Shown: positions 1,467 through 32,903 of the stretch, piece after piece
Numbering within the stretch: position 1 is the stretch's first letter
How the letters are laid out: every line of letters begins with the position of its first letter
NCBI GenBank assembly: GCA_017415105.1
Contig: JAFQJD010000039.1
Coordinates: forward strand, 1-37,352
Length of the DNA stretch: 37,352 bases
Source of the DNA: Clostridia bacterium
Lineage (GTDB): Bacteria; Bacillota; Clostridia; UBA1381
Direction: 5' to 3'
Translations under genes and position numbers: made by a program
The notes under the pieces: generated by a model
Told to the model about the DNA's origin: nothing
What the model saw: only the letters and a program-made list of their open reading frames with translations
Database searches by the model: none

Positions 1467-1525
1467 GATGATATTTTGTTTAGTGATGGAAAAATAATAA
1501 TTATTGATTGAGGATAGATGTTTTT

Positions 1526-3997
1526 ATGAAATCAAAGTTTACGAATGACAAAAAGCGAATTTTAGGTGAATGTTTAGCAACGATAATTTTGTTAGTTGTT
1601 TGTGTATTTGCTTATTTTGCCGATAAAGGTATTTACAAAATCCCTACCATTTTTATTTTGAGAATAAAGAACAGTGAAGAGTTGCTTTTTAATTTATTTG
1701 GGGTTCAGGCAACTGTTTCCAGTATTGGAATTGCGATAATAGCTTTATTATCAGGAGCAAATTCAGAAAGTGCATATGGAATATGTTTTTCTAGATATAT
1801 TTCATATATTAAACCACAGCTTTTTAAACATAATCGCCTAATAATCACAAATTTAATTATTACGCTTGCTAACTATTTCGTTGTTTCTTATTATCTTTTT
1901 AATTTATCTATTTCGTTGTTTTTTGTTAGTATAATGATTTCGGTTAAGTTGGCTAATGATATATATGTTATATTTTTAGGTCGGAAAGAAATGAAAAAAC
2001 AAATTTCGCAATATATTATAGATAATTACGATTGTGGTCTGTTGCAAGAATTCTCATTAGCTTTGAATGATCCAGAGGAATTGAAGAATTTATCTTGCAC
2101 AAAAGATAATTTTGACCTACTTAATGAGATCTTTAAGAAGGAGTTATCAAATGCAAATCCTGACGAAGAATTGAAACTGTTGAAATATTTAGAAAAGGTT
2201 TCAACAGAGACATCTATAAACATGTTGAAGAAAAATGAATCACAATTAACGATGCTTGTGTTAGATCATTTATTAAGTGTATATACAATAGCAAATGAAG
2301 AAAGTAATGTTTCTCTAGATATATGGGATAATATAATACCAGAGTTTTTTGATTCATTAAAAAACTTGATGTATCATCATATAAATGATTCAGGAGTGTT
2401 TTTTGACTTGTATAGACAATTATACCATAATAGCAAGTTTGTGATTGACAATCATGGTCGCATGTCAAATAATTCATTGAAATATTATTCAACATGGCTC
2501 TATAATGCGTTGAGAAACAGCCAAAACCGCGATTCGTTTGATATGGATAGAATCGCTAAAAGAATTTACGATGACATTAGTTCTCTTTATAAATTTGATA
2601 AAGAAATTGATGATACTAAACGTGATATTCTTATGGCAGAAATGAACATATTTGCTCGAAATTTGATCGAATGTGGTGAGACTAGAACTTTAACAAAACT
2701 GTATTTTAATGTGGATTTTTATCCAGATGAAGAATATAAAGAAGTCTCATTATTTGTTGTACTTATATACTTGTACTACTTGATTTGTAGGGAACCGCTT
2801 GCGAATGATACAGTGTTAAAATTGAATGCCGAAAAAATTGTGAAAGAGAATCTGAAAAATATATGTTATTTTATAGATAATGTAAATATTTCAAGAATTA
2901 TTAGTAAAAAATTGGATTTTATAAGAAATCTTATGCATACATGGGAAGTGATGCCAGAAGGGGAAGCAAAAACAATGATTATTGATACTGTCATAAATGA
3001 TTGGTTTGTTTTCTGTGTATTAGAACGCTTTCACTCTAAAGATGAATTACAAGAAATGGTTTATAATATTTCTCCAGATGATAGTTTTTCTATTTACACA
3101 TCATATTTTTCAGGAGATGGTAAAAGAATAGTTGATCTTTTTTCAAAATTCCAATCTGTATTTTATAATAAAATGGACGATCCTGAATTTGACGAAAAAA
3201 TAGATTTATTAAGAAATGTACTATATGAAAAATATAGAAAAGAAGAGTTAAAAGAAGGAATAGAAGAGCAGATAACTGAAGACGATAAAGCCAGATTTAC
3301 AAAATTGGTAAGTGATGAATTTAACAATATTTTAAATGAGAATCTATCTTTATTGAATTCTCATACAATTCATAAAGAAAATGTTATTGAAGAACCTCTT
3401 ATATTGAATATATCATTGCCTAATATAACATTTCGTGAAGATTTTTTAAATACATTCATTTCCAGAGAACTTCATAATTCTCTTATAAATCTTCTTTTAT
3501 TTAAACTGAAAGATCATATAAAGATAGAAAAAGCAAGAATTTATGATCGTGATATTCAAGAAAGATTTATTAAATTAGTTAAACTTCATAATATAAATGG
3601 TGATATATACTTAGGAAATAGAGATATATTTTGGCATGAAGAAAACAAAAATCTTCTTAAGGATTTTGTATCATCAATGAAAAACATCAATTATTCAAAA
3701 GGATATAGTCAAATATTTATTATTGACAGTACAGCTATGCATTTTAAATACTCTAATATAAGAGTTGAATTCGAAGATTTAACCGAAGAGGAAATCGCAG
3801 AAAAATGCAAAATAGATGAAAATGGTGTTTTAATGTACAACGTTACAAATGACATTTATATCCCGTTTGAAAAAGCGGAACTTACTGAACATGTACATCG
3901 AATTAAGAAAAAAGCTAAAATTTACGTAGAAATTTCTTATAAGATTGATGGAATAGTAGGAGTTGGCATTCTTATTGAACAAGATAAGAAAAAGTAA
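1526..3997 (+). CDS. Large membrane protein of unknown function, AT-rich accessory gene
   Basis: This is an 823-aa protein if begun at ATG 1526, which has GAGGA 11 bases upstream; a TTG at 1508 is the alternative. The first ~150 residues contain about four hydrophobic segments (one near ATIILLVVCVFAYF, one near SSIGIAIIALLSG, and a pair near residues 105-145). The remaining ~670 residues are charged, helix-rich and free of membrane segments, so a cytoplasmic domain is likely. I recognise no family and see no nucleotide-binding or nuclease motif. Codons are strikingly A/T-ending compared with the genes from 4.4 kb on, which suggests recent acquisition together with the Fic gene. A role in sensing or defence would be a guess. 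Confidence 0.8.
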   Translation: MKSKFTNDKKRILGECLATIILLVVCVFAYFADKGIYKIPTIFILRIKNSEELLFNLFGVQATVSSIGIAIIALLSGANSESAYGICFSRYISYIKPQLFKHNRLIITNLIITLANYFVVSYYLFNLSISLFFVSIMISVKLANDIYVIFLGRKEMKKQISQYIIDNYDCGLLQEFSLALNDPEELKNLSCTKDNFDLLNEIFKKELSNANPDEELKLLKYLEKVSTETSINMLKKNESQLTMLVLDHLLSVYTIANEESNVSLDIWDNIIPEFFDSLKNLMYHHINDSGVFFDLYRQLYHNSKFVIDNHGRMSNNSLKYYSTWLYNALRNSQNRDSFDMDRIAKRIYDDISSLYKFDKEIDDTKRDILMAEMNIFARNLIECGETRTLTKLYFNVDFYPDEEYKEVSLFVVLIYLYYLICREPLANDTVLKLNAEKIVKENLKNICYFIDNVNISRIISKKLDFIRNLMHTWEVMPEGEAKTMIIDTVINDWFVFCVLERFHSKDELQEMVYNISPDDSFSIYTSYFSGDGKRIVDLFSKFQSVFYNKMDDPEFDEKIDLLRNVLYEKYRKEELKEGIEEQITEDDKARFTKLVSDEFNNILNENLSLLNSHTIHKENVIEEPLILNISLPNITFREDFLNTFISRELHNSLINLLLFKLKDHIKIEKARIYDRDIQERFIKLVKLHNINGDIYLGNRDIFWHEENKNLLKDFVSSMKNINYSKGYSQIFIIDSTAMHFKYSNIRVEFEDLTEEEIAEKCKIDENGVLMYNVTNDIYIPFEKAELTEHVHRIKKKAKIYVEISYKIDGIVGVGILIEQDKKK

Positions 3998-6628: not shown

Positions 6629-6658
6629 CTGATTTTATTGCAGGAGTGGGTGATAAAA

Positions 6659-7429
6659 ATGAGAGAAAAACCGTGGGAAGGATACATAAAACCTTCAAAA
6701 ATGATTGGAAATTTGTATTTTGCAGGCACTTATGATGCATCAACTCATATTATTGATACCGGCGAAGGGTTGATTCTTATTGATCCGGGATACTCGGAAA
6801 GTCTTCATATGGTAATAAATAACATATGGGAGTTGGGATTTAAACCGACGGATATAAAATATATAGTTATTTCACATGCACATTATGACCATATGGATGC
6901 TACAGAAGCACTTGTTGCAATGTCCGGTGCAAAAACGTTTATCGGCAGAGAGGACCTTCCGCTTCTTGAGGGAGAAATATATCATTATCCTATAAAAACA
7001 TTCAAGCCCGATGTATTGCTTGACGACGGTGATGTTATAAGCTTGGGCAACACAAAAATCGAATGTGTTCATACTCCGGGACATACAGACGGAACATTTT
7101 CGTTTTTCTTTGATGTCTGCGAGGGAACAGAAATATACCGTGCAGGTATGTTTGGCGGAGCAGGAACAAATACAATGGTTAAGAACTTTTTGGAAAAGAA
7201 CAACCTGCCGCCTGATAACAGGCAGAGATTTATTGATAGTATAAAGAGGCTAATGCGGGAAAAGGTTGATGTTTTTGTTGGAAATCATGTGTGGAACAAC
7301 AAAACGGATAAGAAGCTGGCGGAGCTTGAAGGTTCAGAAAAGAACCCGTTTATAAATACGGAGGAATGGAACACTTTTCTTAAAGAAAGAATGTCAAGAA
7401 TAAATTCTGTCATAAAAAATGACGAATAA
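6659..7429 (+). CDS. Metallo-beta-lactamase-fold hydrolase, glyoxalase II-like
   Basis: This is a 256-aa cytoplasmic protein with the di-zinc motif HAHYDH (His73, His75, Asp77, His78), a second-shell TPGHTDG histidine and a late GNH histidine. Enzymes of this fold hydrolyse thioesters, lactones or phosphodiesters. It is a clear paralogue of the MBL protein at 34279 (same IDTG-GLILID-GY opening and PGHTDG, GNH-NN blocks). Start choice: ATG 6659 with GTGGG about 8 bases upstream; GTG 6650 and TTG 6638 are less likely. It forms a probable operon with the Ldh_2 gene. A lactonase acting on an oxidised sugar is my preferred guess because of that neighbour. Confidence 0.88.
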   Translation: MREKPWEGYIKPSKMIGNLYFAGTYDASTHIIDTGEGLILIDPGYSESLHMVINNIWELGFKPTDIKYIVISHAHYDHMDATEALVAMSGAKTFIGREDLPLLEGEIYHYPIKTFKPDVLLDDGDVISLGNTKIECVHTPGHTDGTFSFFFDVCEGTEIYRAGMFGGAGTNTMVKNFLEKNNLPPDNRQRFIDSIKRLMREKVDVFVGNHVWNNKTDKKLAELEGSEKNPFINTEEWNTFLKERMSRINSVIKNDE

Positions 7430-7541: not shown

Positions 7542-7645
7542 TAAATAAATAGAGGTAAGCAGATATATAAATCTGACGGTTGGAAATGTCAGATTATGTA
7601 TGGCTGGTATCAATATTTAGAGGACGAAAAGAAAGGAAGATGAAA

Positions 7646-9235
7646 ATGAAGAAAAAAATATTTGCACTTTTGTGTGCAGGAATGATGCTTCTTAGCGGTT
7701 GTGGTGGCAATGGCGGAAACGGCGGCACTGATTATGAAACATCACAGGCAAATTTTAAGGGCTATCCGATGGAGGGAGCTCCGAAAATGACATATTGGCT
7801 GGCGATGAGTTCTAATATGTCGCTTGTGGCAAGCAATCCGGGTGAAACTGCATTTGCAAAGGAGCTCGCAAAGAGAACGGGCGTGGAGATTGAGTATATT
7901 GATCCGGGTACAGCGGGTGAGCAAGACCTGAAGAACCGTATTGCTTCAAAGGAAATGCCGGATATGGTAACATATACCTGGGGAAGCTTTAACGGAGGTG
8001 CTTCAAAGAGTATTGAAGACGGAATTATTCTTCCGCTTAACGATTTGATTGAAGAGCATGCACCGAATCTGAAAAAGTATCTTGAGGAACATCCGGAAAT
8101 TGATAAGATGGTAAAGACAGATGACGGCACATATTATTGTTTCCCGTTTATACGCGGCGGTGAGAGACTTCTTATTTCAACCGGCCCTGTTTACAGACGT
8201 GACTGGGCGAATGAAGCAGGACTTGATGCTCCGAAGACTGTAGCCGACATAGAAGAAATACTTAAAGCATATAAAGAACAAGGTGTTAAGAAGCCGTTGA
8301 GTGTTACGGCAGGTAACCTTACAGTATTTATGGGTAATTTCAGTACAGGAATCGGTTTCTATTTAGACTCAAAAGAAAATGTTGTATTCGGACCGACTAC
8401 TGATAATTACAAATTTGCATTGGAGACATTCGCAAAATGGTATAAGGAAGGTTTGCTTGATAACAACTTCATATCAATTGATGCGGCGACAGTTAAGGCA
8501 CAGGTTCTTAACGGAGAAACCGGTATGACGATCGCATCAGGCGGTGGAAATCTTGGTTCATGGCTTGATACAAAGGAAGCTTTGGGAGAACCATTTGATA
8601 TGGTTGGCTTCGGATTCACAGCAAACAAAAAAGGCGGCAAGAATACATATCATCAGCTTGAATCAAATGTGCCGGGTTACGGATGCGTTGCGATTACGAC
8701 ATCATGTAAGGATCCTGTAGCAGCTGTGAGATATCTTGACTACGGTTACAGTGAAGAAGGTCATCTTCTTTACAACTTCGGTATAGAAGGCGTAAGTTAT
8801 GAGAAGAATGACAAGGGTGAGTGTATCTTTACAGACCTCATAAATAAGAACCCGGATGGCTGGACGCAGGCATCAGCGATGGCATACTATTTGCGTTCAT
8901 CATCGTCAGGCCCGTTTATTCAGGATGAGGGTTATATAGATCAGTTCTATGGCAAACCAAACCAGCAGGATTCGCTGGATGCATGGATTGCAGACTATGA
9001 CACTGCAAAGAAATATGTTCTTCCTAACATTGCAAAGACAAATGACGAAAACGTAGAGTATTCTGAAATTATGTTCGATGTCAATGAGTATGTTTCAGCC
9101 GAGAGAATTAAGTTCATAACGGGTGAGAGATCATTCGACGAATGGGATGAATATGTTAAGAAGGTTAACGAGCTTGGAGCTATAAGAGCTAAAGAGATAG
9201 TTGATGCAGCTCTTGACAGATATAACGCAAAGTAA
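7646..9235 (+). CDS. LplA-type extracellular solute-binding lipoprotein of a sugar ABC transporter
   Basis: This 529-aa protein starts MKKKIFALLCAGMMLLSGCG, a lipoprotein signal peptide with an LSGC lipobox, so it should be lipid-anchored outside the membrane. The mature part has the family 1 binding-protein pattern of the large LplA/YtcQ group: PEMPDMVTYTW-type text, FPFIRGGERLL, YRRDWANEAGLD, a GYGCVAI segment and AVRYLDYGYSEEG. This group binds oligosaccharides such as pectic and xylan fragments. Start: ATG 7646 with GGAAG six bases upstream; the frame upstream is open but lacks a signal. No LplB/LplC permease or ATPase gene is near, so transport must use permeases encoded elsewhere. A strong terminator follows. 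Confidence 0.92.
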   Translation: MKKKIFALLCAGMMLLSGCGGNGGNGGTDYETSQANFKGYPMEGAPKMTYWLAMSSNMSLVASNPGETAFAKELAKRTGVEIEYIDPGTAGEQDLKNRIASKEMPDMVTYTWGSFNGGASKSIEDGIILPLNDLIEEHAPNLKKYLEEHPEIDKMVKTDDGTYYCFPFIRGGERLLISTGPVYRRDWANEAGLDAPKTVADIEEILKAYKEQGVKKPLSVTAGNLTVFMGNFSTGIGFYLDSKENVVFGPTTDNYKFALETFAKWYKEGLLDNNFISIDAATVKAQVLNGETGMTIASGGGNLGSWLDTKEALGEPFDMVGFGFTANKKGGKNTYHQLESNVPGYGCVAITTSCKDPVAAVRYLDYGYSEEGHLLYNFGIEGVSYEKNDKGECIFTDLINKNPDGWTQASAMAYYLRSSSSGPFIQDEGYIDQFYGKPNQQDSLDAWIADYDTAKKYVLPNIAKTNDENVEYSEIMFDVNEYVSAERIKFITGERSFDEWDEYVKKVNELGAIRAKEIVDAALDRYNAK

Positions 9236-9238
9236 TAA

Positions 9239-9284
9239 AAATAACAGCGATTGCATATCAAAATGCAATCGCTGTTATTTTTTT
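9239..9284. terminator. Strong bidirectional terminator between convergent genes
   Basis: AAATAACAGCGATTGCAT (9239-9256) pairs perfectly over 18 bp with 9263-9280 around an ATCAAA loop. T-runs follow on the plus strand (TTTTATT) and on the minus strand (TTATTACTTT). It ends both the rightward lipoprotein gene (stop 9235) and the leftward AraC gene (stop at 9285-9283). Confidence 0.93.
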
Positions 9285-10278: not shown

Positions 10279-10307
10279 TTGTAACAAATTTGCATATATG
10301 TTATAAT
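10279..10307 (+). promoter_or_regulatory. Promoter of the 13-kb surface-protein operon
   Basis: TTGTAA (10279-10284) and TATAAT (10302-10307) are 17 bp apart. TTGTAACA occurs twice around it, at 10279-10286 over the -35 box and at 10310-10317 just after the -10 box. The pair flanks the polymerase site and could be a repressor or regulator site. A leader of about 65 bases precedes the start at 10381. Confidence 0.6.
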
Positions 10308-10380: not shown

Positions 10381-13300
10381 ATGAGAAAAAAACTGATGAT
10401 TTTATTATCTGCTGCAATGTTGTTTAACAGCCTTGCAGGACTTACAGGCTATGCAGAAACAACTGTAGATTCTGAAATTGCTGTTGTGACCGATGATGAG
10501 AATATTAAAACAGAAACAGGCACTACAAAGGTCTGCGGAACGACCAATCCGTACTGGATAGCAGATGATACAGCAGATGCATTAAAACCTTTTGCTGAAT
10601 CTACAGTTAAAGCACAGCAAACATCTGCACAAAATACGGTTACTGCAGAAGATCTGGCGGCAAACGATGATATAATCGGAAACCCGGTAGAAAAAGGCGG
10701 TGTGAGCTTTATCGGCGTCAGAAGAGGCTATGCAATTGTAGCAGCTCCGGAGAATGGAACTATAAGCCGCTTTAAATATTATATTTTTGCGGAAGGCGGC
10801 ACGGAAAGCATTACGTCATCATTGTCTGTATCGGATGAGTTGAACGGTACTTACAATCCGGTAACGGTAACTTTGAAAAAACTTGGTTATGTAAGCGGAA
10901 GAAAGACCAATCATTTTCTGTACGAGGTGGAAACGGCAGCGGAGATAAGCAATAAATATGTAAAAGTGACGCTTTCGGAGGAAAATAACAGTTTCCTTAT
11001 ACTTGGTGCATTTGAATACGACTGGCTGAAAACAACAGATTTAAGTCAGTTGCCGGATGGAACAAACAAGGTTTCCGGTACAACTAATGAGTACTGGATA
11101 GCAGATAGTACAGATGATGCATTGAAACCTTTTGCGGAGTATACAGTTAAGGCACAGCAAACATCTGCACAAAAAACAGTTACTGCAGAGGATTTGGCAG
11201 CAAACAAGGACATAATCGGAAACCCGGTAGAGACAGGCGGAACAAGCTTTATTGGTGTCAGAAAAGGATATGCAGTGTTTGCAGCTCCGGCGAATACATT
11301 TATAAGACGTTTTAAATACTACATTTTCGCTTGTGGCAGCGACACAGAAAAAATTGTGTCATCACTGTCCGTATCGGATGAAATAAACGGTACTTATAAC
11401 CCGACAGCGGTAACTGTAAAAAAACTTGGTTATGTAAGCGGAAGAGCGACAAATCATTTTTTGTATGAGGTAGAAACGGCAGAACAGATAAACTGCAAAT
11501 ATGTAAAGGTAACTCTTTCAGAGGAAAACAACGATTTTCTCATACTTGGTGCATTTGAATACGATTACAAAATTAACAAGGCTGCGATGGCACTGGATAA
11601 AGTATTCTATACATATGATGACATCTTAAACGGTCAAGACAAAATGAATGTTGAAGATGACCTGAAACTTTTTGAGACAATCGAGGCGGAAGAAAAGGAA
11701 TACACAATTGAGTGGTTGACAACCGATGAAGCAATTATAGCATCTGACGGAACGGTACGCCGACCGACACAAAGTAAGTCCGTGACGGTCACTGCAAAGG
11801 TTTTTGATAACTCACAAACTATGGTGTATTCAAAAAACTATGATGTAACAGTAGCGGCTATAGGAAGCACTCTTGTATTGAAAGAGGATTTTGAAGCGGC
11901 GGTACTTGATGAGGGAACAGGAACAGCAAGTGTTAACGGCTATAATGGATGGATTTCGCAAAACACCGAAAAGACAAAAAGTGCAATTTTAAAAGACCCG
12001 TCAAATGCCGATAACAAAGCACTTTGGGTTTACAGAGAGGATGTAACGTCTGACGGTGATAAGAACCAAAAAGATTATGATGAAATATCAGGCGGAAAAT
12101 TAGAATTAAGCTTTAAGCATATGACAACCTCGTCAAGCACACAGTCAAGAGTCGGCTGGTGCGGTATGGACCTTTATATAAGAGCGTCAGGAATTTACGG
12201 CTCTGTAAGTGGAACGAGTATCAGCTTTACAAATCAGAAAAAAGTTACATGGAAATTGGGAGTGTGGCATGAATACAGATTTGTAATTGATATGGATCGT
12301 GCATTGCTCGATATCTATTTTGAGGGAGAACAGATACTTGATGACTGTGTACTTCCGTCAGCAACATATACATCTTCGTATGTTTCTTTAAGAACAAAAA
12401 GAAACGGAAACTACGGTTCATCGTATTTTGACGATGTATGCATGAGAAATCTCTCTCCTTCAGACGAGGATGCAATAAAATATGATGCGGACTTAATAAG
12501 CATTCCTGAAGCAACTGTGGATGACATCGAGCTTCCTGCAATGGGCAATTTCGATTCAATTATTGCATGGGACAGCTCTCATCCATCGGTAATAGACAAT
12601 AACGGTATTGTGACACAAGGGGCAGAGGATACAGACGTAACACTCCATGCAACTCTTGCACGGGGAGAGTATATTGAAGAACGTGACTTTACCATTAAGG
12701 TTCTGGGTGCACAAAATACTGATTATATTACACGGGACGAAGAAGCAATCAAGGCCATAGCTGAAAAATTTTCATTAGAAAAGATGCTTGACGGTCAGTC
12801 TGCTTTAAATATCACAGACGATATTACTTTACCATTAGAATACAGCGACGGTGATGCAGGACGTCTTGGCGGTTGTAACATAAGCTGGAGCAGTGATGGC
12901 GATGCACTTACAATCAATGGTAGTGAGGGTATCGTTACAAGGGGTGAGAATGATACAAAGATAACACTTACAGCAGAGTTTTCGTTTAAAGAGGATAGCG
13001 AAACAAAAACTGAGAAGACCTATACTCTTATTATATCGGGTGAGGGTGAATACGAATACCACAACACCTTTGACGGTGCAGGGTTCGGAAATAAAGCATC
13101 ATTGCTTGACGGTGTGAGTGTGACTGAGGCCGAAGACAGCGGCTCTTTCTACGGCGCATGGCAGTCTCCGACAGATTTATTAAACGGTGTGCTGGCTGTA
13201 ACACGCACAGACCTTACTTCTGTTGATAAGGATGCGGTTCTTGCAACAGATTATACAGGAAAAAATGCAGAAGCAGGATTCTCCTTCTATTTAACCAGTC

Positions 13301-15330
13301 CGGCAGACAGAATTGATGTTTCGCTTGACGGAGTGGATATCTCTGTATATGTAAAATCAAGTCAGATATCGGTTGACGGTGTTTTGTATGACACAACAGT
13401 AACAACAAAAGAATGGCACAAGCTTGTTCTGCGATTTGATGACTACAATAAATTCTGTTATGTATATCTTGACGGCACAGCACTTTCAGAGGACCCGATA
13501 GAATACGATACAGATTTTGAAATCAATTCAATAACGGTATCAAATGATGCAACAAACGGAACACTTGGTTCGTGGTATGCTGATGATGTATATATAAAGG
13601 ATATAGATGTATCTGATGAAGAAGCCATAAGAAGAACGATTGCGGCAATTGATATAGCAGATACTGCGGAATGGAATATCACACTTCCCAAACTCGGCAA
13701 GCTCGGTGCAAGTATAAGCTGGAGCTCGGAGGACGATACGGTTCTTGACGGTAACGGTATTGTAAAAAGAACAGTCGGAGGCGACAAGACAATAACACTT
13801 ACCGCGAGCGTATCAAGAGGCGGTGTTGTAGTTGATGCGGACTTCGATGTAGTCGTTCCCGGACTTACAGGAAATGAAACACCTACGCAGGAAAAGTTTG
13901 AAGAGCACGTTAATGCAATAGATATTTCTGAACTTACAAGCGAGAAATATACTGAAATAACAAAAGACCTTGATTTGTTCAGTGAATATATGAACGGTAA
14001 CTGTGCGTTTTACGGCGGTATGGACGTTACGTGGAGTTCGGAGCATACGCAGGTTATAACTGACGACGGAAAAGTAACACGCCCGATGCTTGACAAGGGT
14101 GTAACAATGACTGCTACGTTCACATCAAAGCGTGATACATCAGTAACTGCACAGAAGGATTTCCACTTCATTGTACTTGCGCCATTTGAAATGATCTGTT
14201 ATGAGGATTTTGATGACATAACAGAGGCTATGGTGGGAACAAACATTAACGAATACAAGGATTGGACATTTGAAAAACAGATTGAAGTTAATAAGTCAAT
14301 GATAGCCGACCTTGAAATTGACCCGGCGGATAAAGACAAACCGTTTAACGAGGCAAACAAGGCATTCAGAATTTCAAGATGGAGAAACAGCAGTTATCCT
14401 GAACGTGCAAGATGGTACTTTACTGCAAAAGAGAGCGAGGCAATGATAGAAGCAGATGCAGTGGCATTCAGCTTTAAAATCAAGTATATAAACACAAAAT
14501 CAAAGCTGGATTTTGCACTTGGAGGATTAAGCGGAATTATTAGCAACGGCTCCATAAGCAACAGTACTACCGTAAAAGGCAGCTTCACCAGCGGTTCATT
14601 CCCGGCAAACGAGTGGCATACCCTGACCTTTATAGTAGCACCGGCGAGCGGAGTGGTTTATTTCCTTATTGACGGAAATAAGGGCTTTTCGGAGCCCTAT
14701 GGCGAATTCGACAAGAAGTTGAGCGTCAGATATCTTGAATTGCATACATTCAGAAAAAGAGGTCAGAGTGATTACTATATTGACGACATATCAATCCGGG
14801 TTCTGAAGGATTCAGATAAAGCGGCGGTGGAAAAGGCTTTTTCAGAACTGACATTACCGCAAACTGTTATTGATACAGTGACGTTACCGTCCTTTGGTGC
14901 GGAGAGAACGAACATAAGCTGGATATCAGACAGTCATGATGTTATCCTCGACAGCGGCGAGATAGTAGGAACAGGTGATGCACTTCTCAAGGCTATAATA
15001 ACACGAGGTACGGCACAGTCTGAAAAGGAATTTTCAGTAAACGTAACAAAAACGGACAGCTATGACTTTACTGTAAAAAACCTTATGGTTTCTAACGGAA
15101 TAATAAGCGGTGCTGAAGTTTCATACACGGAAGATACTGCAGGTACGGAGCTTGTCGTGCTTGTATATAATAATGGCAGACTCTGTGCATTGCGAAATAC
15201 ACAAATTACCGGAACAGCTATTACATTTGACGCAGTTGATATATCAGAATTCTATGACTGTGAGATTGAAGCATATGTAAAGAAGGGTTCGGATATTGTG
15301 AGCAATGTTTATGTAACAAATCCACAATAA
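10381..15330 (+). CDS. 1649-aa secreted multi-module glycan-binding candidate
   Basis: A signal peptide (residues 1-25, ending GYAET) is followed by two tandem ~165-aa modules (about 50-214 and 230-395) of a type I do not recognise. Then come alternating aBig Ig-like repeats (around 400-495, 700-775, 785-885, 1086-1160, 1165-1268, 1490-1555; each with an ISWSS-x-VI-GIVTRG-TLTA pattern) and three LamG/concanavalin-like beta-sandwich domains (around 500-695, 890-1080, 1270-1485; each with EDF, an EWH-L-F core and a YFDD-type end). A ~90-aa beta domain closes the protein. There is no catalytic signature, SLH, LPXTG, dockerin or membrane anchor. A role in capturing polysaccharide is inferred. It is the first gene of the operon; the next starts 22 bp later. 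AACGGAGG precedes the start. Confidence 0.85.
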   Translation: MRKKLMILLSAAMLFNSLAGLTGYAETTVDSEIAVVTDDENIKTETGTTKVCGTTNPYWIADDTADALKPFAESTVKAQQTSAQNTVTAEDLAANDDIIGNPVEKGGVSFIGVRRGYAIVAAPENGTISRFKYYIFAEGGTESITSSLSVSDELNGTYNPVTVTLKKLGYVSGRKTNHFLYEVETAAEISNKYVKVTLSEENNSFLILGAFEYDWLKTTDLSQLPDGTNKVSGTTNEYWIADSTDDALKPFAEYTVKAQQTSAQKTVTAEDLAANKDIIGNPVETGGTSFIGVRKGYAVFAAPANTFIRRFKYYIFACGSDTEKIVSSLSVSDEINGTYNPTAVTVKKLGYVSGRATNHFLYEVETAEQINCKYVKVTLSEENNDFLILGAFEYDYKINKAAMALDKVFYTYDDILNGQDKMNVEDDLKLFETIEAEEKEYTIEWLTTDEAIIASDGTVRRPTQSKSVTVTAKVFDNSQTMVYSKNYDVTVAAIGSTLVLKEDFEAAVLDEGTGTASVNGYNGWISQNTEKTKSAILKDPSNADNKALWVYREDVTSDGDKNQKDYDEISGGKLELSFKHMTTSSSTQSRVGWCGMDLYIRASGIYGSVSGTSISFTNQKKVTWKLGVWHEYRFVIDMDRALLDIYFEGEQILDDCVLPSATYTSSYVSLRTKRNGNYGSSYFDDVCMRNLSPSDEDAIKYDADLISIPEATVDDIELPAMGNFDSIIAWDSSHPSVIDNNGIVTQGAEDTDVTLHATLARGEYIEERDFTIKVLGAQNTDYITRDEEAIKAIAEKFSLEKMLDGQSALNITDDITLPLEYSDGDAGRLGGCNISWSSDGDALTINGSEGIVTRGENDTKITLTAEFSFKEDSETKTEKTYTLIISGEGEYEYHNTFDGAGFGNKASLLDGVSVTEAEDSGSFYGAWQSPTDLLNGVLAVTRTDLTSVDKDAVLATDYTGKNAEAGFSFYLTSPADRIDVSLDGVDISVYVKSSQISVDGVLYDTTVTTKEWHKLVLRFDDYNKFCYVYLDGTALSEDPIEYDTDFEINSITVSNDATNGTLGSWYADDVYIKDIDVSDEEAIRRTIAAIDIADTAEWNITLPKLGKLGASISWSSEDDTVLDGNGIVKRTVGGDKTITLTASVSRGGVVVDADFDVVVPGLTGNETPTQEKFEEHVNAIDISELTSEKYTEITKDLDLFSEYMNGNCAFYGGMDVTWSSEHTQVITDDGKVTRPMLDKGVTMTATFTSKRDTSVTAQKDFHFIVLAPFEMICYEDFDDITEAMVGTNINEYKDWTFEKQIEVNKSMIADLEIDPADKDKPFNEANKAFRISRWRNSSYPERARWYFTAKESEAMIEADAVAFSFKIKYINTKSKLDFALGGLSGIISNGSISNSTTVKGSFTSGSFPANEWHTLTFIVAPASGVVYFLIDGNKGFSEPYGEFDKKLSVRYLELHTFRKRGQSDYYIDDISIRVLKDSDKAAVEKAFSELTLPQTVIDTVTLPSFGAERTNISWISDSHDVILDSGEIVGTGDALLKAIITRGTAQSEKEFSVNVTKTDSYDFTVKNLMVSNGIISGAEVSYTEDTAGTELVVLVYNNGRLCALRNTQITGTAITFDAVDISEFYDCEIEAYVKKGSDIVSNVYVTNPQ
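10528..11565 (+). repeat. Tandem in-gene duplication of a ~165-codon module
   Basis: 10528-11022 and 11068-11565 are two copies of the same module offset by 540 bp (543 after one inserted codon). Long runs of DNA are identical, for example GCACAGCAAACATCTGCACA and the stretch reading ATAATCGGAAACCCGGTAG. Both protein copies share NPYWIADDT-type text, an IGNPVE-GG motif, SLSVSDE-NGTYNP and NHFLYEVET. Conservation of silent sites points to recent duplication or gene conversion. Confidence 0.9.
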
Positions 15331-15352: not shown

Positions 15353-18300
15353 ATGATTAAAAAACTTATAAGTTTAATATTATCGGCTGTAACTATTGCA
15401 AATATTATACCGATAGTTTTTGCAGCAGATGAATACTCCGTGACAACTATGCTCTATTCAGAGGATTTTGAAAGCTACGAAACAGGCACGAAACCGAAAA
15501 TGGATGTTTATGAGTCAACAGGCAGTATTAAGGTTGAAACTGTCGGTGCGGCTAAAGCCTTACATATTCAAAATATAAACGGAAATGCAAACGCTATGGC
15601 GGAAAAGTCAATTGATAAAATTGAAAAAAAGCCGGTAGAGGCATCCGTAAGATTTATGCAGACGCAGACAGGTTCGTCACAGAATAAGGTGCTTGAACTT
15701 TCCGGTGATGGCACTTCGGTTACAGTTTTTGCAAACGCCGGAGCATTATATATTGACGAAACAAAAATCTGTGATTATGTTGCAAACAAGTGGTATACGG
15801 TATCGCTTGACATCAACCTGTTCAATTCTAAAATTGACGTGTCGGTAAACGGTGAGGAAAAACTAACCGATACCGTGACGGCTGTAAAAGCGATTGAAAA
15901 AATTGCAATTGGTGCGTCGCAGTCACCGGGTTTCTGGGTTGATGATATAAAGCTTCTGAGCGAGCAGAATATGACACAAATGAGTATAGACGGCAACAGC
16001 ACTGCGGTAATACCCAGGAATGGAGAGAACGAGTATAAGTTCTTTGCATACTGCAAGGACGAAAATGGCGAGAAAATCACAGTTTCGGACATTGACTGGA
16101 GTATATCTCCGGTAGACTATCAGGGAATAACAACAGACAAAACCGCAGACGGTTTTATAATAAGAGTGACATCAGGGGCTATTGAGGGCGAGATTACACT
16201 GACGGCTTCAATAGAGAATGGTGCATATTCCCAGACAAAAACAGTAAAGCTCGAAAAGGTATCAGCAGACGAAATCCGAATTGATGGAGATCCAAGAATA
16301 TCAGGAGAGAATGGTGAAACGTACCGATACGGATATGAGGTCGTAATGAACGACCAGAACGGTGATACAATTGAGAACTACGGTGATTTTATATGGACAA
16401 TGACCGGAGTTAATGGATATGTTATCCCGTCAAGTATAAAGCTTAACGAAACCACAGGAATAATAACCGTAGCAGCTGAAACTCCTTACAGAGAGTTTAT
16501 AGAGCTAAAGGCAACCTCGGTTGATGATCCTGATATATGGCAGAAAAAGAAAATTCTTATAACAGACCATGACTCACACGTTCTTGACAGCAGACGCTAT
16601 GATGCTGTTAAAGCACACATTGACAATGTTATAGAATATGCAAAAGACCCGTATGATGACACACCGCTTATTGCCGATCTTGTGAATGTCAAGGCAAAAG
16701 CACCGGGTGCACTGATAATGGGTGATGGTACAACGGCATATCTTCACAACCTCGGTGCACAGTCAAATCTTATGCGTTCGATGGTGAATTTATCGAATTT
16801 TGAGAACGATGATAAGTACAAAAATCAGGTAAACGACATTTACCGATATAACATAGATGTTGCAGAGAGTCCGACATATCTTTTTGAAGGCGGACATATG
16901 GAGCTGGACCTCAGAACAAAAACTGCAAATGCATATACCAGAGCATACTGCTCTGTAATAAACGAAATGAAGAGCGGTTTTATATACCGTGTACCGATGT
17001 TTGAAGTTGATTATGAGGCGGGCGAGACTCTTACAAAGTCAGCGTTTGTAGGTCATACCGGTTTTAATAGCGAGCATCGCTGGAAAAATGTGTTGGTGGG
17101 CAGACACTGGTACTGTGCAACAGACGCATTGACTCCGGAAACGGCTGATTATTACTGGAACGATACTTCAAAGTACGACTGGGAAAGAAAAGGCGCTATA
17201 ACATATGCAGAAGATTGTAACTTCCTTATTGCATACAGCGAAATGTTCTGGCTGTTAGCAGAATACTACGAGTGTGCACGGACCCAGGAGGAAAAGGATA
17301 AAATCTTAGAATGGGGAGATATTATTTACTCATCGCTTGACCAGACCGGATACAATCCGCTTACGGGCGAATATACGGGAATGTTTAATGAGACAAATGG
17401 CTCAAAACACTATGAGGACTGGAGCAAGATTTACGCTACATGGGAAAAAAATGGCAGACACTGGTATGACAAGACGAATTATACGAGCTATGTTCCGGGA
17501 GACCGTTGGCTTACAAATGTAATCCTTGGCGACAGAGATATAAGAGCTGTTTCCGATGGCGGAGAGGGCTTCGGACCAAGCTCTGACGGTAAATCATGGG
17601 TAAATGACCATTATGATCCGGACCCGATGAAGGGCGTAAATGAACAGAACTGGATGCTCTTTCTGGAACCGTATATGTTCACAAGAGAAAACTCGTGTAT
17701 CGTTCAAATAGTACCGGGGCTTTTCACATTCCTGGAAATCCTTGAGGATGATTCGCCGCTAAAAACAAAAATCATTGAGAAGTATACTAATGCAATATAT
17801 AACTACTTAAACTTGCGTTATGACTGGGAGGATTCTCACTTTGATGCAAAAATGAGCTGGGGTCTTGACGTAACCGGTTGGGAGTATCCGCATAACGGAT
17901 ATTATGGTACAGAAGGCTCTACAATCACAGGAAAAGTACCGGAAACAGAGCTTGTAGAAGGTTTGGCAATGCTTTGCCATAAAGCGGTGCAGCTTGCAGA
18001 ACAGACAGGCGAAAACGAAAGTGCATCAAACACATATCCTGAAAAGAAACGAAAAGAGCAGCTTTTGGAGCAGGCAGAGTATATATGGAGCGTGTTGAGA
18101 AACCTTTGTAAGATTAACTATGACATGGGTGACATAGGAAATCCATTCAAAGGCGAGCCGGCAAAGCTTAATTTAGCAACAACCTCTACAAACACGGCAC
18201 TTCTTCAGGGTGCCACAAGAATGTATCAACTGTATGCAGACGAACAGTTCTTAAAGCTTGCATCCAACATAGGAAACAACATAGTAGCGTCACAATTCAA

Positions 18301-18787
18301 TGATGGTAATGGTGTATTTGCAAACTCAAATGCAATACTGACAACATCGTCAAATTTGGTTCTGCCGGCACTTCTGCAGCTTGAGGCGACATTGCTTGAT
18401 GATTACGATAAACTCATTGAAGCTCAAACCATAGGAAGAGTAAGACAGTACTATGACCCGGGCGTTTTAGGAGAGCACGGCGGAGTTGATGAGCCTTATC
18501 CGTACACATCGCTTCTTTCACTTGCCGAAGCGGGTGTAACACAGCAGATGCTTATCATCGAAAAACCGTTTACAATGAAAGCGGGCGAGCAGAGAAAAAT
18601 CAAATACACCGTTCTTCCGTATGATGCGGGAACGGGAGTATTGTGGGATGTTTCTGACCCGTCAATTGCGGATATATCTGACAGTGGGGTTATAACTGCT
18701 CACAAGCGTGGAACGGTTGATGTCCGATGCGTTTCAAGCTCGGTTCAGGGACTGAAATCAGAAACAATTACCGTAACGGTGGAATAG
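15353..18787 (+). CDS. 1144-aa secreted protein with probable alpha/alpha-toroid enzyme domain
   Basis: The signal peptide (1-24) is followed by a concanavalin/LamG-like domain (~28-205, with EDFES-ETGT and WVDDIKLL), two Ig-like beta regions (~210-400), a large helical region (~409-1060) and a C-terminal BIG2 domain (~1067-1144, VLWDVSDPSIADISDSGVIT). The helical region opens RRYDAVKAHIDNVIEYA, then TPLIADL, SNLMRSMVNLS and FEGGHMELD, and later has NTALLQGATRMYQL and VLPALLQLEATLL. This helical-pair pattern resembles secreted (alpha/alpha)-barrel enzymes often labelled pectate-lyase-like. I cannot assign a CAZy family or name the catalytic residues. It is the second gene of the operon, and GGAGGAG precedes the start. 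It is the best candidate for the extracellular depolymerase. Confidence 0.75.
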   Translation: MIKKLISLILSAVTIANIIPIVFAADEYSVTTMLYSEDFESYETGTKPKMDVYESTGSIKVETVGAAKALHIQNINGNANAMAEKSIDKIEKKPVEASVRFMQTQTGSSQNKVLELSGDGTSVTVFANAGALYIDETKICDYVANKWYTVSLDINLFNSKIDVSVNGEEKLTDTVTAVKAIEKIAIGASQSPGFWVDDIKLLSEQNMTQMSIDGNSTAVIPRNGENEYKFFAYCKDENGEKITVSDIDWSISPVDYQGITTDKTADGFIIRVTSGAIEGEITLTASIENGAYSQTKTVKLEKVSADEIRIDGDPRISGENGETYRYGYEVVMNDQNGDTIENYGDFIWTMTGVNGYVIPSSIKLNETTGIITVAAETPYREFIELKATSVDDPDIWQKKKILITDHDSHVLDSRRYDAVKAHIDNVIEYAKDPYDDTPLIADLVNVKAKAPGALIMGDGTTAYLHNLGAQSNLMRSMVNLSNFENDDKYKNQVNDIYRYNIDVAESPTYLFEGGHMELDLRTKTANAYTRAYCSVINEMKSGFIYRVPMFEVDYEAGETLTKSAFVGHTGFNSEHRWKNVLVGRHWYCATDALTPETADYYWNDTSKYDWERKGAITYAEDCNFLIAYSEMFWLLAEYYECARTQEEKDKILEWGDIIYSSLDQTGYNPLTGEYTGMFNETNGSKHYEDWSKIYATWEKNGRHWYDKTNYTSYVPGDRWLTNVILGDRDIRAVSDGGEGFGPSSDGKSWVNDHYDPDPMKGVNEQNWMLFLEPYMFTRENSCIVQIVPGLFTFLEILEDDSPLKTKIIEKYTNAIYNYLNLRYDWEDSHFDAKMSWGLDVTGWEYPHNGYYGTEGSTITGKVPETELVEGLAMLCHKAVQLAEQTGENESASNTYPEKKRKEQLLEQAEYIWSVLRNLCKINYDMGDIGNPFKGEPAKLNLATTSTNTALLQGATRMYQLYADEQFLKLASNIGNNIVASQFNDGNGVFANSNAILTTSSNLVLPALLQLEATLLDDYDKLIEAQTIGRVRQYYDPGVLGEHGGVDEPYPYTSLLSLAEAGVTQQMLIIEKPFTMKAGEQRKIKYTVLPYDAGTGVLWDVSDPSIADISDSGVITAHKRGTVDVRCVSSSVQGLKSETITVTVE

Positions 18788-18797
18788 GAGGAACAAA

Positions 18798-21446
18798 ATG
18801 AATAAGCTTACTAAAATACTGACATCACTTGTGTGTGCGTTTATCATAGCACTATCGAGTGTTCAGGCGGCATTCTTCGATGACGCAAAAGACCACAAAT
18901 ATGCTGAAGATATACGCCTTTTGTGCAATCTTGGCATCGTTAACGGTGATGATGACGGAAACTTTAACCCCGACAATTCAGTCAGCCGTATAGAATTTCT
19001 TACAATAGTATTGAGAACACTTTACGATAACCAGAGCCTGTACCTTTCCGCAGGCGGCGAGTATGCATTCGATGATGTGCCCAAGAGTCATTGGGCATAT
19101 CACGAGGCTTGCTTTATGAGGCTTATGGGAATGACAGAAGGCGTGGGCGATAACAAGTTTGACCCTACAGCTACAATTGCACTGCGTGATGCAGTGAAAA
19201 TCCTTGTAAGTGCATTAAGCTATGGTGAGGTCGCCGAAACGCAGGGCGGATATCCTAACGGCTATCTGCAGGTTGCATCATCAATCGGACTTATGGACAA
19301 TGCAGAAGCTGCAAATGGTGAGGCAATGACAAGAGCCGAGGTTGCACACCTTGTAGCAGGTGTTCTTGACATAGAGGACAACACAGAGCTTAAAAAGACA
19401 ATACTTGAAAAACGCAAGTATGCAATAATAGACGGAACAGTAGATGCAGTATATGAATTGCAGATGGGTAAGACTCTTACTCCCGGACAGATACAGATAG
19501 GCGGAAAGGTCTATAACACCAATGTAACACTGCTTCCGTGTCCGGAAATTGAGCTTGTCGGCAGACGTGTTATTGCATACTATTCAGCAGATAAAGATGC
19601 AATTATACATATAGAAAAGAAGGGTGAGCAGGACGTACTCACTATAAAGAGCCGTGATATTGCAGGTACACCTACAATTTCACAGTATCAGTATATTGAT
19701 GCGAACAGTAAGACAAAAACCGAGCAAATTGAAAACGGTGTAGTAATCTACAACGGTGAGCTTCTCGGAACAGGGCAGATTACACCGTCAAAGCTTAAGC
19801 CAAACTCCGGTGAGGTCACATTGATGGACACAGACGGCAATAACGTATATGATATGATTTACGTTAAGAGCTATGACACATATACAGTTCGTTCGAACAA
19901 CAACGGAATGATATATGACCGTCTTGGCAATCAGATAGACCTTGCGGAAATCAACACCGTATACGTATATGATGGTGACACAGAAGTAACGATTGGGGAC
20001 ATTAAAGCCGATGATGTAATATCAGTTATGAAGAGCATGAGCGGTGACAGAGCATGGGTATATATAAGCCGTGCAACTGCCGAGGGCAGAATTGACACCA
20101 CACGCACAAAGGGCACAGCAACGCTATGCGGAATAGGCGATGATGAGTACTACATCAGCTATACTTATAAGAACAAACAAAACACATCATATGCTGTATC
20201 AATGAAACCCGGTGATTACAGAAAGGTTTACCTTGACATATACGGCGAAATCGCATTTGCAGAAGCAACAGAGGCTGATAGAGAGCTTCCCGACTATGCA
20301 TATCTTGTAAGTGCAAAAACAAGTGCAGAGGTTGGCGACCAGGCGGCGGTTGTAAGACTTCTGACAGCCGATAACAAGTTCAGGAACTTTGTCATTTCAG
20401 TCGATGAAAAAATCCGTTTCGGCAGACTTTCGGGCGATAATTACACAATCTCAAAGGAAGATGCCGATACTATTGCTACACAGCTCAACTCAAACAAGAA
20501 ATCGCTTGTAACATACGAGCTTGACGAAGAGGGAAAGCTCACAAAGATATGTTTGCCAGGCAGCAGAAAGGACAGTGAAAATATTTCAAGAGACTCTTCG
20601 AAATATTCAATGAACTACAGAAACAAGGTAATTGACAGTAAATATTACGTAGACCAGAACACTGTCTGCTTCGGAATCCCGTTCAATGGTGCTTATGAAG
20701 AATATATGTCAGCCGGACAGTATAATGACATACTCAAAACCGGTTCACAGACATTAACACTTTATGATATGGAGCCTGACGGACGAATCGGTGCACTCAT
20801 ATCACATTCAACCGTAACGGAACGTTACACAGAGTCGAAGGGTGAATATGAGGTACTGCTTGACTATGTAAACTCACCGATACTCTTTGTAAATGACGTA
20901 ATTACAAAGCTTGATGAGGACGGTGATGAAGAAACCTATGCTGTAGGCTATCAGCTCGGAATTGAAACTACCGTACCGATAGGAAATAGTGTAAACGGAA
21001 ATTCAGAGTCGCTTGATGTCATAAAACCCGGTTCTGCGGTACAGTATGTAACAAACACACTTGACCGTTCAAGAGCGACAACTTCGGAGGATAAGGAACG
21101 TATCATAATAGTCAGAAAGGTATTTGACTTTACGGTAGACAATCCATATAAATCGACATATGGTTATTCGGAATCATACGTCAGCCGTATATCAGGCGTA
21201 AGCTCAATGTCACTTGACGGTCTGGTTGTAACCTTTGACACTGTTAATGAAATATCTGATGCGGCAATAAAGCTTAACAAGAGTTCTGTATCTATACAGA
21301 AAAACAGCGGTATAGTTGTTATGTTCTATAATACTGAAACTGAACAATTTGAACCTGCAACTCTTGATGACGTGCAGATTGGTATGGAAGTTTTTGTTCG
21401 ACGCAGATATAACAATGCCATTGAAATTGTAATTATGAAAGACTGA
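18798..21446 (+). CDS. S-layer homology (SLH) surface protein
   Basis: This 882-aa protein has a signal peptide (1-24) and then SLH repeats at ~24-75 (ending GNFNPDNSVSRIEFL) and ~88-140 (FDDVPKSHWAYHEACFMRL), plus a third, weaker one at ~150-195 (EAMTRAEVAHLVAG). Three SLH repeats bind pyruvylated secondary cell-wall polysaccharide, so the protein should sit on the cell surface. The remaining ~690 residues are beta-rich, with several OB/beta-barrel-like units, and have no enzyme motif that I can see. It starts 10 bp after the previous gene, with GGAGG upstream. It may be an S-layer component or a surface platform for the two secreted proteins upstream. Confidence 0.88.
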   Translation: MNKLTKILTSLVCAFIIALSSVQAAFFDDAKDHKYAEDIRLLCNLGIVNGDDDGNFNPDNSVSRIEFLTIVLRTLYDNQSLYLSAGGEYAFDDVPKSHWAYHEACFMRLMGMTEGVGDNKFDPTATIALRDAVKILVSALSYGEVAETQGGYPNGYLQVASSIGLMDNAEAANGEAMTRAEVAHLVAGVLDIEDNTELKKTILEKRKYAIIDGTVDAVYELQMGKTLTPGQIQIGGKVYNTNVTLLPCPEIELVGRRVIAYYSADKDAIIHIEKKGEQDVLTIKSRDIAGTPTISQYQYIDANSKTKTEQIENGVVIYNGELLGTGQITPSKLKPNSGEVTLMDTDGNNVYDMIYVKSYDTYTVRSNNNGMIYDRLGNQIDLAEINTVYVYDGDTEVTIGDIKADDVISVMKSMSGDRAWVYISRATAEGRIDTTRTKGTATLCGIGDDEYYISYTYKNKQNTSYAVSMKPGDYRKVYLDIYGEIAFAEATEADRELPDYAYLVSAKTSAEVGDQAAVVRLLTADNKFRNFVISVDEKIRFGRLSGDNYTISKEDADTIATQLNSNKKSLVTYELDEEGKLTKICLPGSRKDSENISRDSSKYSMNYRNKVIDSKYYVDQNTVCFGIPFNGAYEEYMSAGQYNDILKTGSQTLTLYDMEPDGRIGALISHSTVTERYTESKGEYEVLLDYVNSPILFVNDVITKLDEDGDEETYAVGYQLGIETTVPIGNSVNGNSESLDVIKPGSAVQYVTNTLDRSRATTSEDKERIIIVRKVFDFTVDNPYKSTYGYSESYVSRISGVSSMSLDGLVVTFDTVNEISDAAIKLNKSSVSIQKNSGIVVMFYNTETEQFEPATLDDVQIGMEVFVRRRYNNAIEIVIMKD

Positions 21447-21463: not shown

Positions 21464-23260
21464 ATGAAAAAGACTATATCTTTAATCCTCCTGCTTGCAG
21501 GTATCTTTATTGGCACCTGCTCTGCCCATGCGGCAGAAATGCAGTTTTCAGATATAAGCATCGACCTTGAAACGGCGGTAACGCATAACCTCGTCCTTCC
21601 TGATACATGGGAAGGCACGGGCGTTACGTGGACGACTGATGGCGTATATATAGAGTCTGACGGAACAGTGAACAGACCGTATCCTGATGATGCACAAAAC
21701 GTTACTATCACTGCCGAATACGGCGGTACAACAAAAACATTCACTGTAACCGTAAAAGCCTTTGAAAGCAAAAAAGAGATAGTCCGGACAGCGGCAATGT
21801 ATCTATCATTTTCAGATATAAGTACCGATGATTCAAACTATGTCGAAACAGATTTATATCTGCCCGGAGAAGGGTTATATGGCACAGATATTTTATGGTC
21901 AAGCGGAAATCCGTCATTGATAGATGTGGTATCTGACGGAAACGGCAACTATATCGGTAAGGTCAGCCGCACTCATCTTGGAGAGGGTAATTACGGCGTA
22001 CGTCTTACGGCAGTATTCTACTTTGAGAATGAGTTTTTTGAAAAACACTTCTACATAAATATCGCAGAAGACAGTATGGACTACACCCTGCCGGAGGATT
22101 TAACCAAACTGCGTGACACCTACCGTGATGAGTTTCTGAAACGGAACAATATTTTTGATTTACGCAGTGATTTGATTTTACCGCAGATAACAACGGATAT
22201 AGAGATGACATGTGTATCGGGAAATCCTGATGTTGTTACAGCAGATGGAGTTGTTACAAGAGATAAATTCTACGATAAAAAGGTAACATTCACGGTAAAC
22301 TTCAAAAAGGGATATATCACGACCAATCTGATAATTCCAATCGTGGTTACGGCATACTCAAACAGTGAGCTTGAAAAAATCCCTGAGGATGACGTAAAAA
22401 ATCTTATAGCCGAGATTACCCGTAATAACAGTATGAACGCACTGATGAATAATCTGACTTTAAAGACAACAGGCCCGAATGGCAGTGCGGTTACGTGGTC
22501 GAGCAGTGATATATCTGCTATGACGAACACGGGCGTAATAACGCGTGGCACAAATGATAAAACGGTAACGTTGACCGTTACGGCAGATTTTAAGGGTCAT
22601 ACATACACCGAAAGTATTGACATAATAATCAAACGCAACAGCACAACAAGCGTAACAGAAACTACTCCTGTAATCAGCGGAAGCCCGGGCTTTTCGGCAC
22701 CGTCCGCACCGGTGACACCGCCGTCAGGCGAGATAATCTATTTTGATGACCTCTCGTCAGACCACTGGGCATACGACAATATAATGGGACTTGTTGAAAA
22801 TAATGTTGTCGGCGGCTATGACGATAACACATTCCGTCCCGGTAATGCTGTTACAAGAGAGGAATTTGTAAAGATGCTTCTTCTTGCAACTGATAATTAT
22901 TCGGCAGGCTATGATTCGGAATTTTCTGATGTGGCAGAGGATAGCTGGTACTATACATATGTATCGTGTGCATATAAAAAAGGGATTGTGCAGGGAATTG
23001 CAAATGATTTATTCGGCAGCGGAATCAGTATTTCGAGACAGGATGCGGCGGTTATGATTTGCCGTGCACTCGGAATTGAAACCGAAACTGTGAACGAAAC
23101 GGTATTCCCCGATTTTGACAACATATCAGGATATGCACAGAATGCTGTTTGCACACTTTATGAATCGGGCGTAATAAACGGCGACGATAACGGATATTTC
23201 AATCCGAAAAACAATATCACACGTGCCGAGGTATCAAAGATATTGAGCCTCGTTATGTGA
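21464..23260 (+). CDS. aBig-repeat protein with C-terminal SLH anchor
   Basis: This 598-aa protein has a signal peptide (1-23, ending SAHAAE) and four aBig Ig-like repeats (~26-103, 104-202, 210-298, 302-392; the last with the clear AVTWSSSDISAMTNTGVITRG pattern). A short proline-rich linker (SAPVTPPSG) leads to three complete SLH repeats (~425-598: HWAYDNIMGLVENNVVGGYD, then DSWYYTYVSCAYKKGIVQGI, then AVCTLYESGVINGDDNGYFN). It is the fourth and last gene of the operon, 17 bp after its neighbour, with GGGGAGG upstream. Since aBig repeats also fill the 1649-aa protein, it may tether that unanchored protein; this is inference. It contains no enzyme domain. Confidence 0.9.
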   Translation: MKKTISLILLLAGIFIGTCSAHAAEMQFSDISIDLETAVTHNLVLPDTWEGTGVTWTTDGVYIESDGTVNRPYPDDAQNVTITAEYGGTTKTFTVTVKAFESKKEIVRTAAMYLSFSDISTDDSNYVETDLYLPGEGLYGTDILWSSGNPSLIDVVSDGNGNYIGKVSRTHLGEGNYGVRLTAVFYFENEFFEKHFYINIAEDSMDYTLPEDLTKLRDTYRDEFLKRNNIFDLRSDLILPQITTDIEMTCVSGNPDVVTADGVVTRDKFYDKKVTFTVNFKKGYITTNLIIPIVVTAYSNSELEKIPEDDVKNLIAEITRNNSMNALMNNLTLKTTGPNGSAVTWSSSDISAMTNTGVITRGTNDKTVTLTVTADFKGHTYTESIDIIIKRNSTTSVTETTPVISGSPGFSAPSAPVTPPSGEIIYFDDLSSDHWAYDNIMGLVENNVVGGYDDNTFRPGNAVTREEFVKMLLLATDNYSAGYDSEFSDVAEDSWYYTYVSCAYKKGIVQGIANDLFGSGISISRQDAAVMICRALGIETETVNETVFPDFDNISGYAQNAVCTLYESGVINGDDNGYFNPKNNITRAEVSKILSLVM

Positions 23261-25035: not shown

Positions 25036-25054
25036 TTGAGAGGAGATATTGGCT

Positions 25055-27599: not shown

Positions 27600-27608
27600 G
27601 AAATGGAA

Positions 27609-28937: not shown

Positions 28938-29145
28938 TTAAATAACTCAACGTAATAATTACGAAAACGTATTATGTTTGGAATTACGGTATAACCACAA
29001 CATATGCCTTTCGTTAATTATAAAAAACATTATAAACTCAACGTGATTCGCTTCTTTTGAAGCAAAAAACGGGTGATTTATGCCCGTGTACCGGATTGCG
29101 GACGGGTTTTCCGTCCGCATTTTGTGTACAAAAATGGAGGATTTT
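28938..29145 (+). promoter_or_regulatory. Structured leader before the catabolic operon
   Basis: This 208-bp gap holds AACTCAACGT twice (28944-28953 and 29035-29044), the palindrome CGTAAT-A-ATTACG (28951-28963), a GCTTC-TTTT-GAAGC hairpin (29050-29063), an ACGGG...CCCGT pairing around 29069-29087 and a terminator-like hairpin at 29097-29123. The hairpins lie directly upstream of the ribosome site of GH105. No known riboswitch core is recognised. Confidence 0.45.
29097..29123 (+). terminator. Terminator or attenuator hairpin ahead of GH105
   Basis: TGCGGACGG (29097-29105) pairs perfectly with CCGTCCGCA (29111-29119) around GTTTT, followed by TTTT. The T-run ends only about 13 bases before the GGAGG of the GH105 gene. 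It either ends transcripts from the surface genes upstream, or attenuates transcription into the catabolic operon. Confidence 0.65.
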
Positions 29146-30309: not shown

Positions 30310-30344
30310 GAATTATGAATTTTTTAGAACCGGAGGGTGTAATT

Positions 30345-32877: not shown

Positions 32878-32903
32878 AAATAATATAATGGAGGATGAAT
32901 AAA

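Follow-up and report, generated by a model that had tools for sequence, protein, structure and literature searches.

The domains that come closest to the protein module described here are the carbohydrate-binding modules (CBMs) CBM32 (F5_F8_type_C, PF00754), CBM6/CBM35 (PF03422 and relatives), CBM27, CBM29 and CBM61, together with the Eph ligand-binding and MAM domains, which belong to protein-binding receptors and metalloproteases of animals. The module occurs in four copies in the window, by which we mean the whole analysed stretch of 37,352 nucleotides (nt), an entire contig (C38; JAFQJD010000039.1) of the Clostridia bacterium assembly GCA_017415105.1, whose 1.80-Mb genome lies in 40 contigs. 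Like CBM32, the module is predicted to form a sandwich, has a CBM32 structure (4lpl) as its top Foldseek match and shows, by eye, a similar pattern in its C-terminal half; unlike CBM32, whose profile has 127 positions, it spans 172-194 amino acids (aa) and owns a separate N-terminal third. It differs from CBM6 by the lack of a Pfam match and by a profile-profile value of 0.4% (against 20 of the 30 fetched CBM6 loci), and from CBM27, CBM29, CBM61 and 8x8h (the carbohydrate-binding domain of a putative pectate lyase) by identities of 5-14% and the lack of a PDB sequence-profile match. The Eph ligand-binding and MAM domains give some of the highest structural Z scores (8.7 and 8.2), but their identity with the module is 4-9% in the listed rows. 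The module is real, rare and sequence-novel, and its structural kind is already familiar. Its predicted likeness in fold to common sugar-binding domains and its place among genes for the degradation of acidic plant polysaccharides make it a probable new sequence family within a known class of glycan binders.

Four related copies of one module

Copies 1 (10513-11028, + strand; located by direct-repeat comparison, profile search and alignment) and 2 (11053-11571, +; 80% aa and 79% nt identity with copy 1) form a direct repeat with a spacing of 540-543 nt at the start of the 1649-aa protein A, where the initial annotation had placed two adjacent copies. Copies 3 (about 26084-26665, +; profile match 26303-26662), the most diverged, and 4 (26684-27229, +; 32-35% aa identity with copy 1) lie in protein B. 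The kinship of the latter pair to the former, also proposed earlier, was confirmed. Copy 1 aligns to copy 4 with a score of 225 (maximum of 63 over 1000 shuffles), copy 3 scores 91 and 99 against copies 1 and 2 (shuffle maxima of 60 and 64, 1000 shuffles), and a whole-genome search with a profile built from copies 1, 2 and 4, without copy 3, recovered copy 3 at an expectation value (E) of 1.9e-7. Compared directly, copies 3 and 4 score 55, which is under the shuffle maximum of 68 (1000 shuffles) and thus at chance level. Genome-wide, the module profile matched just the four window copies, and a 1038-base query found only its own site in the 1.80-Mb genome.

The description of copies 1 and 2 as nearly identical in DNA and freshly duplicated did not hold. 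Their ungapped DNA identity is 81% over 272 nt and 82% over 226 nt; in the codon alignment it is 79.1%, with differences at 44% of the synonymous sites. Fresh duplication was dropped on account of a synonymous divergence (dS) of 0.67; the nonsynonymous divergence (dN) is 0.155, and dN/dS is 0.23, an estimate without statistical test. By these values, the copies are related and apparently under constraint, but not freshly made. At the protein level, copies 1 and 2 are 80% identical to each other and 54-55% identical to a partial copy in a second genome (G428).

The boundaries and motifs also needed revision. The alignment identified an extra common stretch, GT-x-[KH]-[VI], about 11 residues upstream of NPYW; since this conserved stretch precedes NPYW, the module measures 172-194 aa, roughly 175 residues, rather than the 165 or so first proposed. 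The motifs said to be shared by all copies are complete in copy 1 and nearly so in copies 2 (where the opening reads NEYW) and 4 (which ends in LGAIDIDY, not LGAF-YD). For copy 3 the statement is too strong, because it lacks both the N-x-YW-x-AD opening and the TVT-x-ED block; in addition, NY replaces NH.

Searches against family libraries

Five single module sequences were searched against Pfam with an E limit of 10 and filters that remove most matches weaker than 0.1; two families were returned, both implausible, with a best E of 0.064. With an E limit of 1, Pfam did not match the F5/8 type C family to proteins A, B and C, nor was this family listed for the five modules at the limit of 10; CBM6 gave no match in the three proteins or the five module sequences. 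For proteins B and C, Pfam returned no family at all at an E limit of 1. At the same limit, the only match of protein A that overlaps a module is the coronavirus NSP13 stalk, over 25 residues (55-79), with an E of 8.8e-5 for the whole protein and at best 0.064 for single modules; we rejected it as short, below the cut-off and implausible. NCBIfam gave no match for proteins A and C and only MoaE on the module of B (residues 573-648 inside module 4; E 0.15, 11.7 bits vs a cut-off of 175). PHROGs returned no match under E 0.05, and the best E values of sequence profiles against the PDB were 0.88 and 0.47. On the same grounds, we judged as chance, besides MoaE, the matches to Pro-MCH (Pfam; E 0.18), to the PADLOC model REase_II at residues 231-296 of A inside module 2 (E 3.1e-4; no single stretch passes) and to NCBIfam LIMLP_04285 at the N-terminal end of B (E 1.5e-4). 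The searches thus yielded no significant Pfam family or PDB sequence match on the module, and the label of an unrecognised module stands for Pfam, NCBIfam, PHROGs and PDB sequences, with implausible sub-threshold matches only. By sequence, the module appears novel against these four resources, and a CAZy CBM family without a Pfam model could still cover it.

Predicted fold

AlphaFold2, run with the extended boundaries and two added sequences (copy 3 and the partial G428 copy), produced a mainly beta model with a predicted local distance difference test score (pLDDT) of 82.2 and a predicted template modelling score (pTM) of 0.79; the earlier boundaries and alignment had given 63.6 and 0.61. The five models of the extended module range in pLDDT from 82.2 down to 60.2. 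The best Foldseek match, 4lpl, has an E of 9.3e-4 and a TM score of 0.37, and CBM6 comes next. In the structural comparison, the Z scores of the Eph, MAM and CBM rows differ by no more than about 1.4. When the module was aligned by hhalign to 30 F5/8 type C domains of the same bacterial family, the probability was 1.9% over 33 columns, with five sequences on the module side (effective sequence number, Neff, 2.2). The model, of fair quality, suggests a galactose-binding-domain-like jelly roll. The discoidin-like jelly roll proposed earlier fits this model and the sort of PDB entries that the model is like, but no single family is dominant and the profile-profile comparison with F5/8 type C is not significant.

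Proposed function and alternatives

We assign a probability of slightly under 0.6 to the reading that the module, about 175 residues long, has a galactose-binding-domain-like jelly-roll fold with a divergent sequence and acts as a CBM-like glycan binder in non-catalytic secreted proteins that accompany a pectin-type cassette. Proteins A and B would be made together with this degradation cassette and exported as non-catalytic capture proteins, and their paired modules would keep acidic plant polysaccharide close to the lyase and esterase, which are exported as well in this reading. The pairing of modules in each protein may raise binding strength or join two specificities. That A and B are exported, lie at the surface and bind sugar through their modules, with pectin as the ligand, is what we infer. 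The earlier observation is mostly right and its glycan-binding idea plausible, being consistent with a locus that encodes Pectate_lyase_2, GH88, GH130 and GH1 proteins. Residues N12, Y14, W15, D18, N133 and H134 (model numbering) are conserved and located in loops or at a strand edge of the model, and are weak candidates for a ligand site. Two observations weigh against this reading: the top of the structural ranking is mostly taken by Eph and MAM domains, which bind protein, and copy 3 lacks part of the conserved pattern. The argument for a candidate site is weak because the loops are no more conserved than the strands (19 of 75 positions vs 25 of 83). A bolder formulation, which we regard as rather doubtful, is that the module founds a new CBM family for an acidic pectic backbone or side chain, paired in the enzyme-free capture proteins A and B, and that the cassette moves between distant Clostridia via large serine recombinases.

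The structural rows would also suit a module that binds protein and assembles A and B with SLH proteins or other surface partners, as Eph ligand-binding and MAM jelly rolls do. We consider this unlikely, since these rows stand within the same narrow Z range as those of the CBMs, no partner was identified and the locus is saccharolytic. Quite improbable is a structural spacer or adhesin repeat without a specific small ligand, multiplied by duplication like the Ig-like repeats of large secreted proteins. The joining of the module to six aBig_2 stretches in protein A, the about equal conservation of strands and loops and the absence of the conserved loop aromatics from copy 3 would fit such a spacer, but the dN/dS between copies 1 and 2 and the retention of N-x-YW-x-AD and G-x-V-x-G-x3-NH among copies that share about a third of their residues argue against it. 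Descent from a common F5/8 type C (CBM32-like) or CBM6-like domain, by drift to below the Pfam threshold, is compatible with glycan binding, and we hold it as a tentative possibility. The Foldseek ranking, the S-D-x2-G-x-Y and YVKV pattern that resembles F5/8 type C by eye, the presence of F5/8 type C in 50 of 61 genomes of this bacterial family and a match to an F5/8 type C-looking stretch in another genome (L034), at only E 0.087, speak for it; the absence of both families from the Pfam search of the five modules and the non-significant profile-profile comparisons speak against it. If the glycan-binding reading is right, the module extends the CBM-like jelly rolls by one sequence family and gives a way to approach the enzyme-free capture proteins of Firmicutes pectin loci, whose modules escape the Pfam and NCBIfam models used.

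Distribution and the related cassette

Module-profile searches at E limits from 0.001 to 0.1 covered overlapping sets of 41, 70, 391, 21, 95, 398 and 28 genomes, 861 in all, many of them incomplete. Secure matches were found in two genomes, the window's own and G428 (E 3.5e-21, and 6.6e-35 with a profile containing the G428 sequence); chance matches to Jag-like open reading frames (ORFs) reached down to E 1.7e-4. Two pattern scans of an 84,980-species collection, which demand near-exact peptide patterns that distant relatives escape, gave none and one match; the single match is RGIG5265, a sheep-colon Clostridia metagenome-assembled genome, on a 39,341-nt contig, as for G428. The phages and viral contigs searched contained no module relative, and the plasmids one match at E 0.3. 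The module is rare.

The weak genome matches outside G428 were rejected, with names taken from reading the translations rather than from library results. Those that were read look like alanine racemase (L006, L011), GH3 (L027, L036), GH43 (L023, L041), Jag (L045, L046), P-type ATPase (L017), SLH proteins (L008, L012, L037) and the like; two discoidin-type-looking stretches (L007, L034) are not significant (E 0.02 and 0.087). The translations read exclude 13 weak-match loci (L009, L010, L014, L016, L018, L019, L021, L024, L026, L028, L029, L030 and L035).

Six genes of the window run are conserved in G428. Its A-like protein (47% identity) is broken off by the contig end within the module, and downstream follow Pectate_lyase_2 (54%), an 883-aa SLH protein (60%), an aBig_2-SLH protein (61%), one C-like protein (31%) and GH88 (65%). 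At E 1e-5, no match to GDSL, GH130, GH1, metallo-beta-lactamase or the module part of B was found on this contig. At its right edge, the window contains a large serine recombinase (36353-37351, -; PF07508 and PF13408) that is broken off by the contig end, and the G428 contig with the related cassette also encodes recombinases of this class (L042, 6904-11836); by tblastn, the window recombinase has no match on that contig at E 1e-3. Large serine recombinases at both loci and the patchy distribution suggest that the cassette may be mobile.

The module-bearing proteins and their gene run

Protein A (10381-15330, +) has an N-terminus that looks signal-peptide-like by eye, followed by modules 1 and 2, six aBig_2 stretches (PF20578, E 3.4e-68) and a LamG-like region (PF13385, E 2.2e-5); the LamG-like and Mannosidase_ig matches are each slightly under their own cut-off, and DUF6645 matches at E 0.05. 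Protein B (25049-27532, +; 827 aa from TTG or 825 aa from an ATG two codons on) consists of an N-terminal region, modules 3 and 4 and a short C-terminal region. Its N-terminal region (25049-26125) is 58% identical to that of the 444-aa protein C (27603-28937, +; shared region 27603-28658) and has no Pfam match; in B, the two modules are added to it. As a candidate for a further, still more diverged copy of the module, this region gives a profile-profile value of 6.5% against it. Protein C shows a weak likeness to the C-terminal half of the module at 27888-28166 (E 2.2e-4), which is at noise level, as unrelated ORFs in other genomes matched at E 1.7e-4 and 7.2e-4 in the same search. Pfam identified no enzyme family in A or B, in agreement with the earlier description, and neither shows contiguity with a catalytic domain in the CAZy sense.

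From protein A to the last gene, all genes point the same way, and the gaps between them measure 5-176 nt. The sequence at 10279-10307 looks like a promoter, but such sites number 8 vs a shuffle mean of 5.3 (standard deviation 2.2), no clear excess. Only 22 nt after protein A follows a 1144-aa Pectate_lyase_2 protein (15353-18787, +; PF06917, E 9.2e-36), which also matches Sialidase-like_CBM (PF22585, 3.7e-7) at 67-185. Next come an 882-aa SLH-domain protein (18798-21446, +), a 598-aa protein with four aBig_2 and three SLH domains (21464-23260, +), both assigned by Pfam, and a 532-aa GDSL lipase/esterase-like protein (23437-25035, +; PF13472, E 3e-10). Proteins B and C are followed by members of GH88 (29080-30309, +; PF07470, E 7.6e-81), presumably of the unsaturated uronyl hydrolase type, GH130 (30315-31322, +; PF04041, E 4.2e-73) and GH1 (32895-34259, +; PF00232, E 1.4e-151). 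Because the neighbours are Pectate_lyase_2, GDSL, GH88, GH130 and GH1 proteins, the locus would break down a uronic-acid-containing plant polysaccharide, most likely pectin.

Three metallo-beta-lactamase-fold proteins are also encoded in this sugar locus (6638-7429, 31354-32877 and 34279-35169). The protein at 7580-9235 reads by eye like a solute-binding lipoprotein and has no Pfam match at E 0.001; no ABC permease family appears among the Pfam results for the 21 ORFs in the window that reach 200 aa or more. A Fic-domain protein at 519-1466 (PF02661, E 4.8e-19) is matched by the PADLOC models PDC-S04 and SoFic, and its gene adjoins that of an 829-aa protein (1508-3997) for which Pfam gave nothing at E 1e-5. 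Between convergent genes, a 20-pair hairpin at 9237-9282 is terminator-like on both strands.
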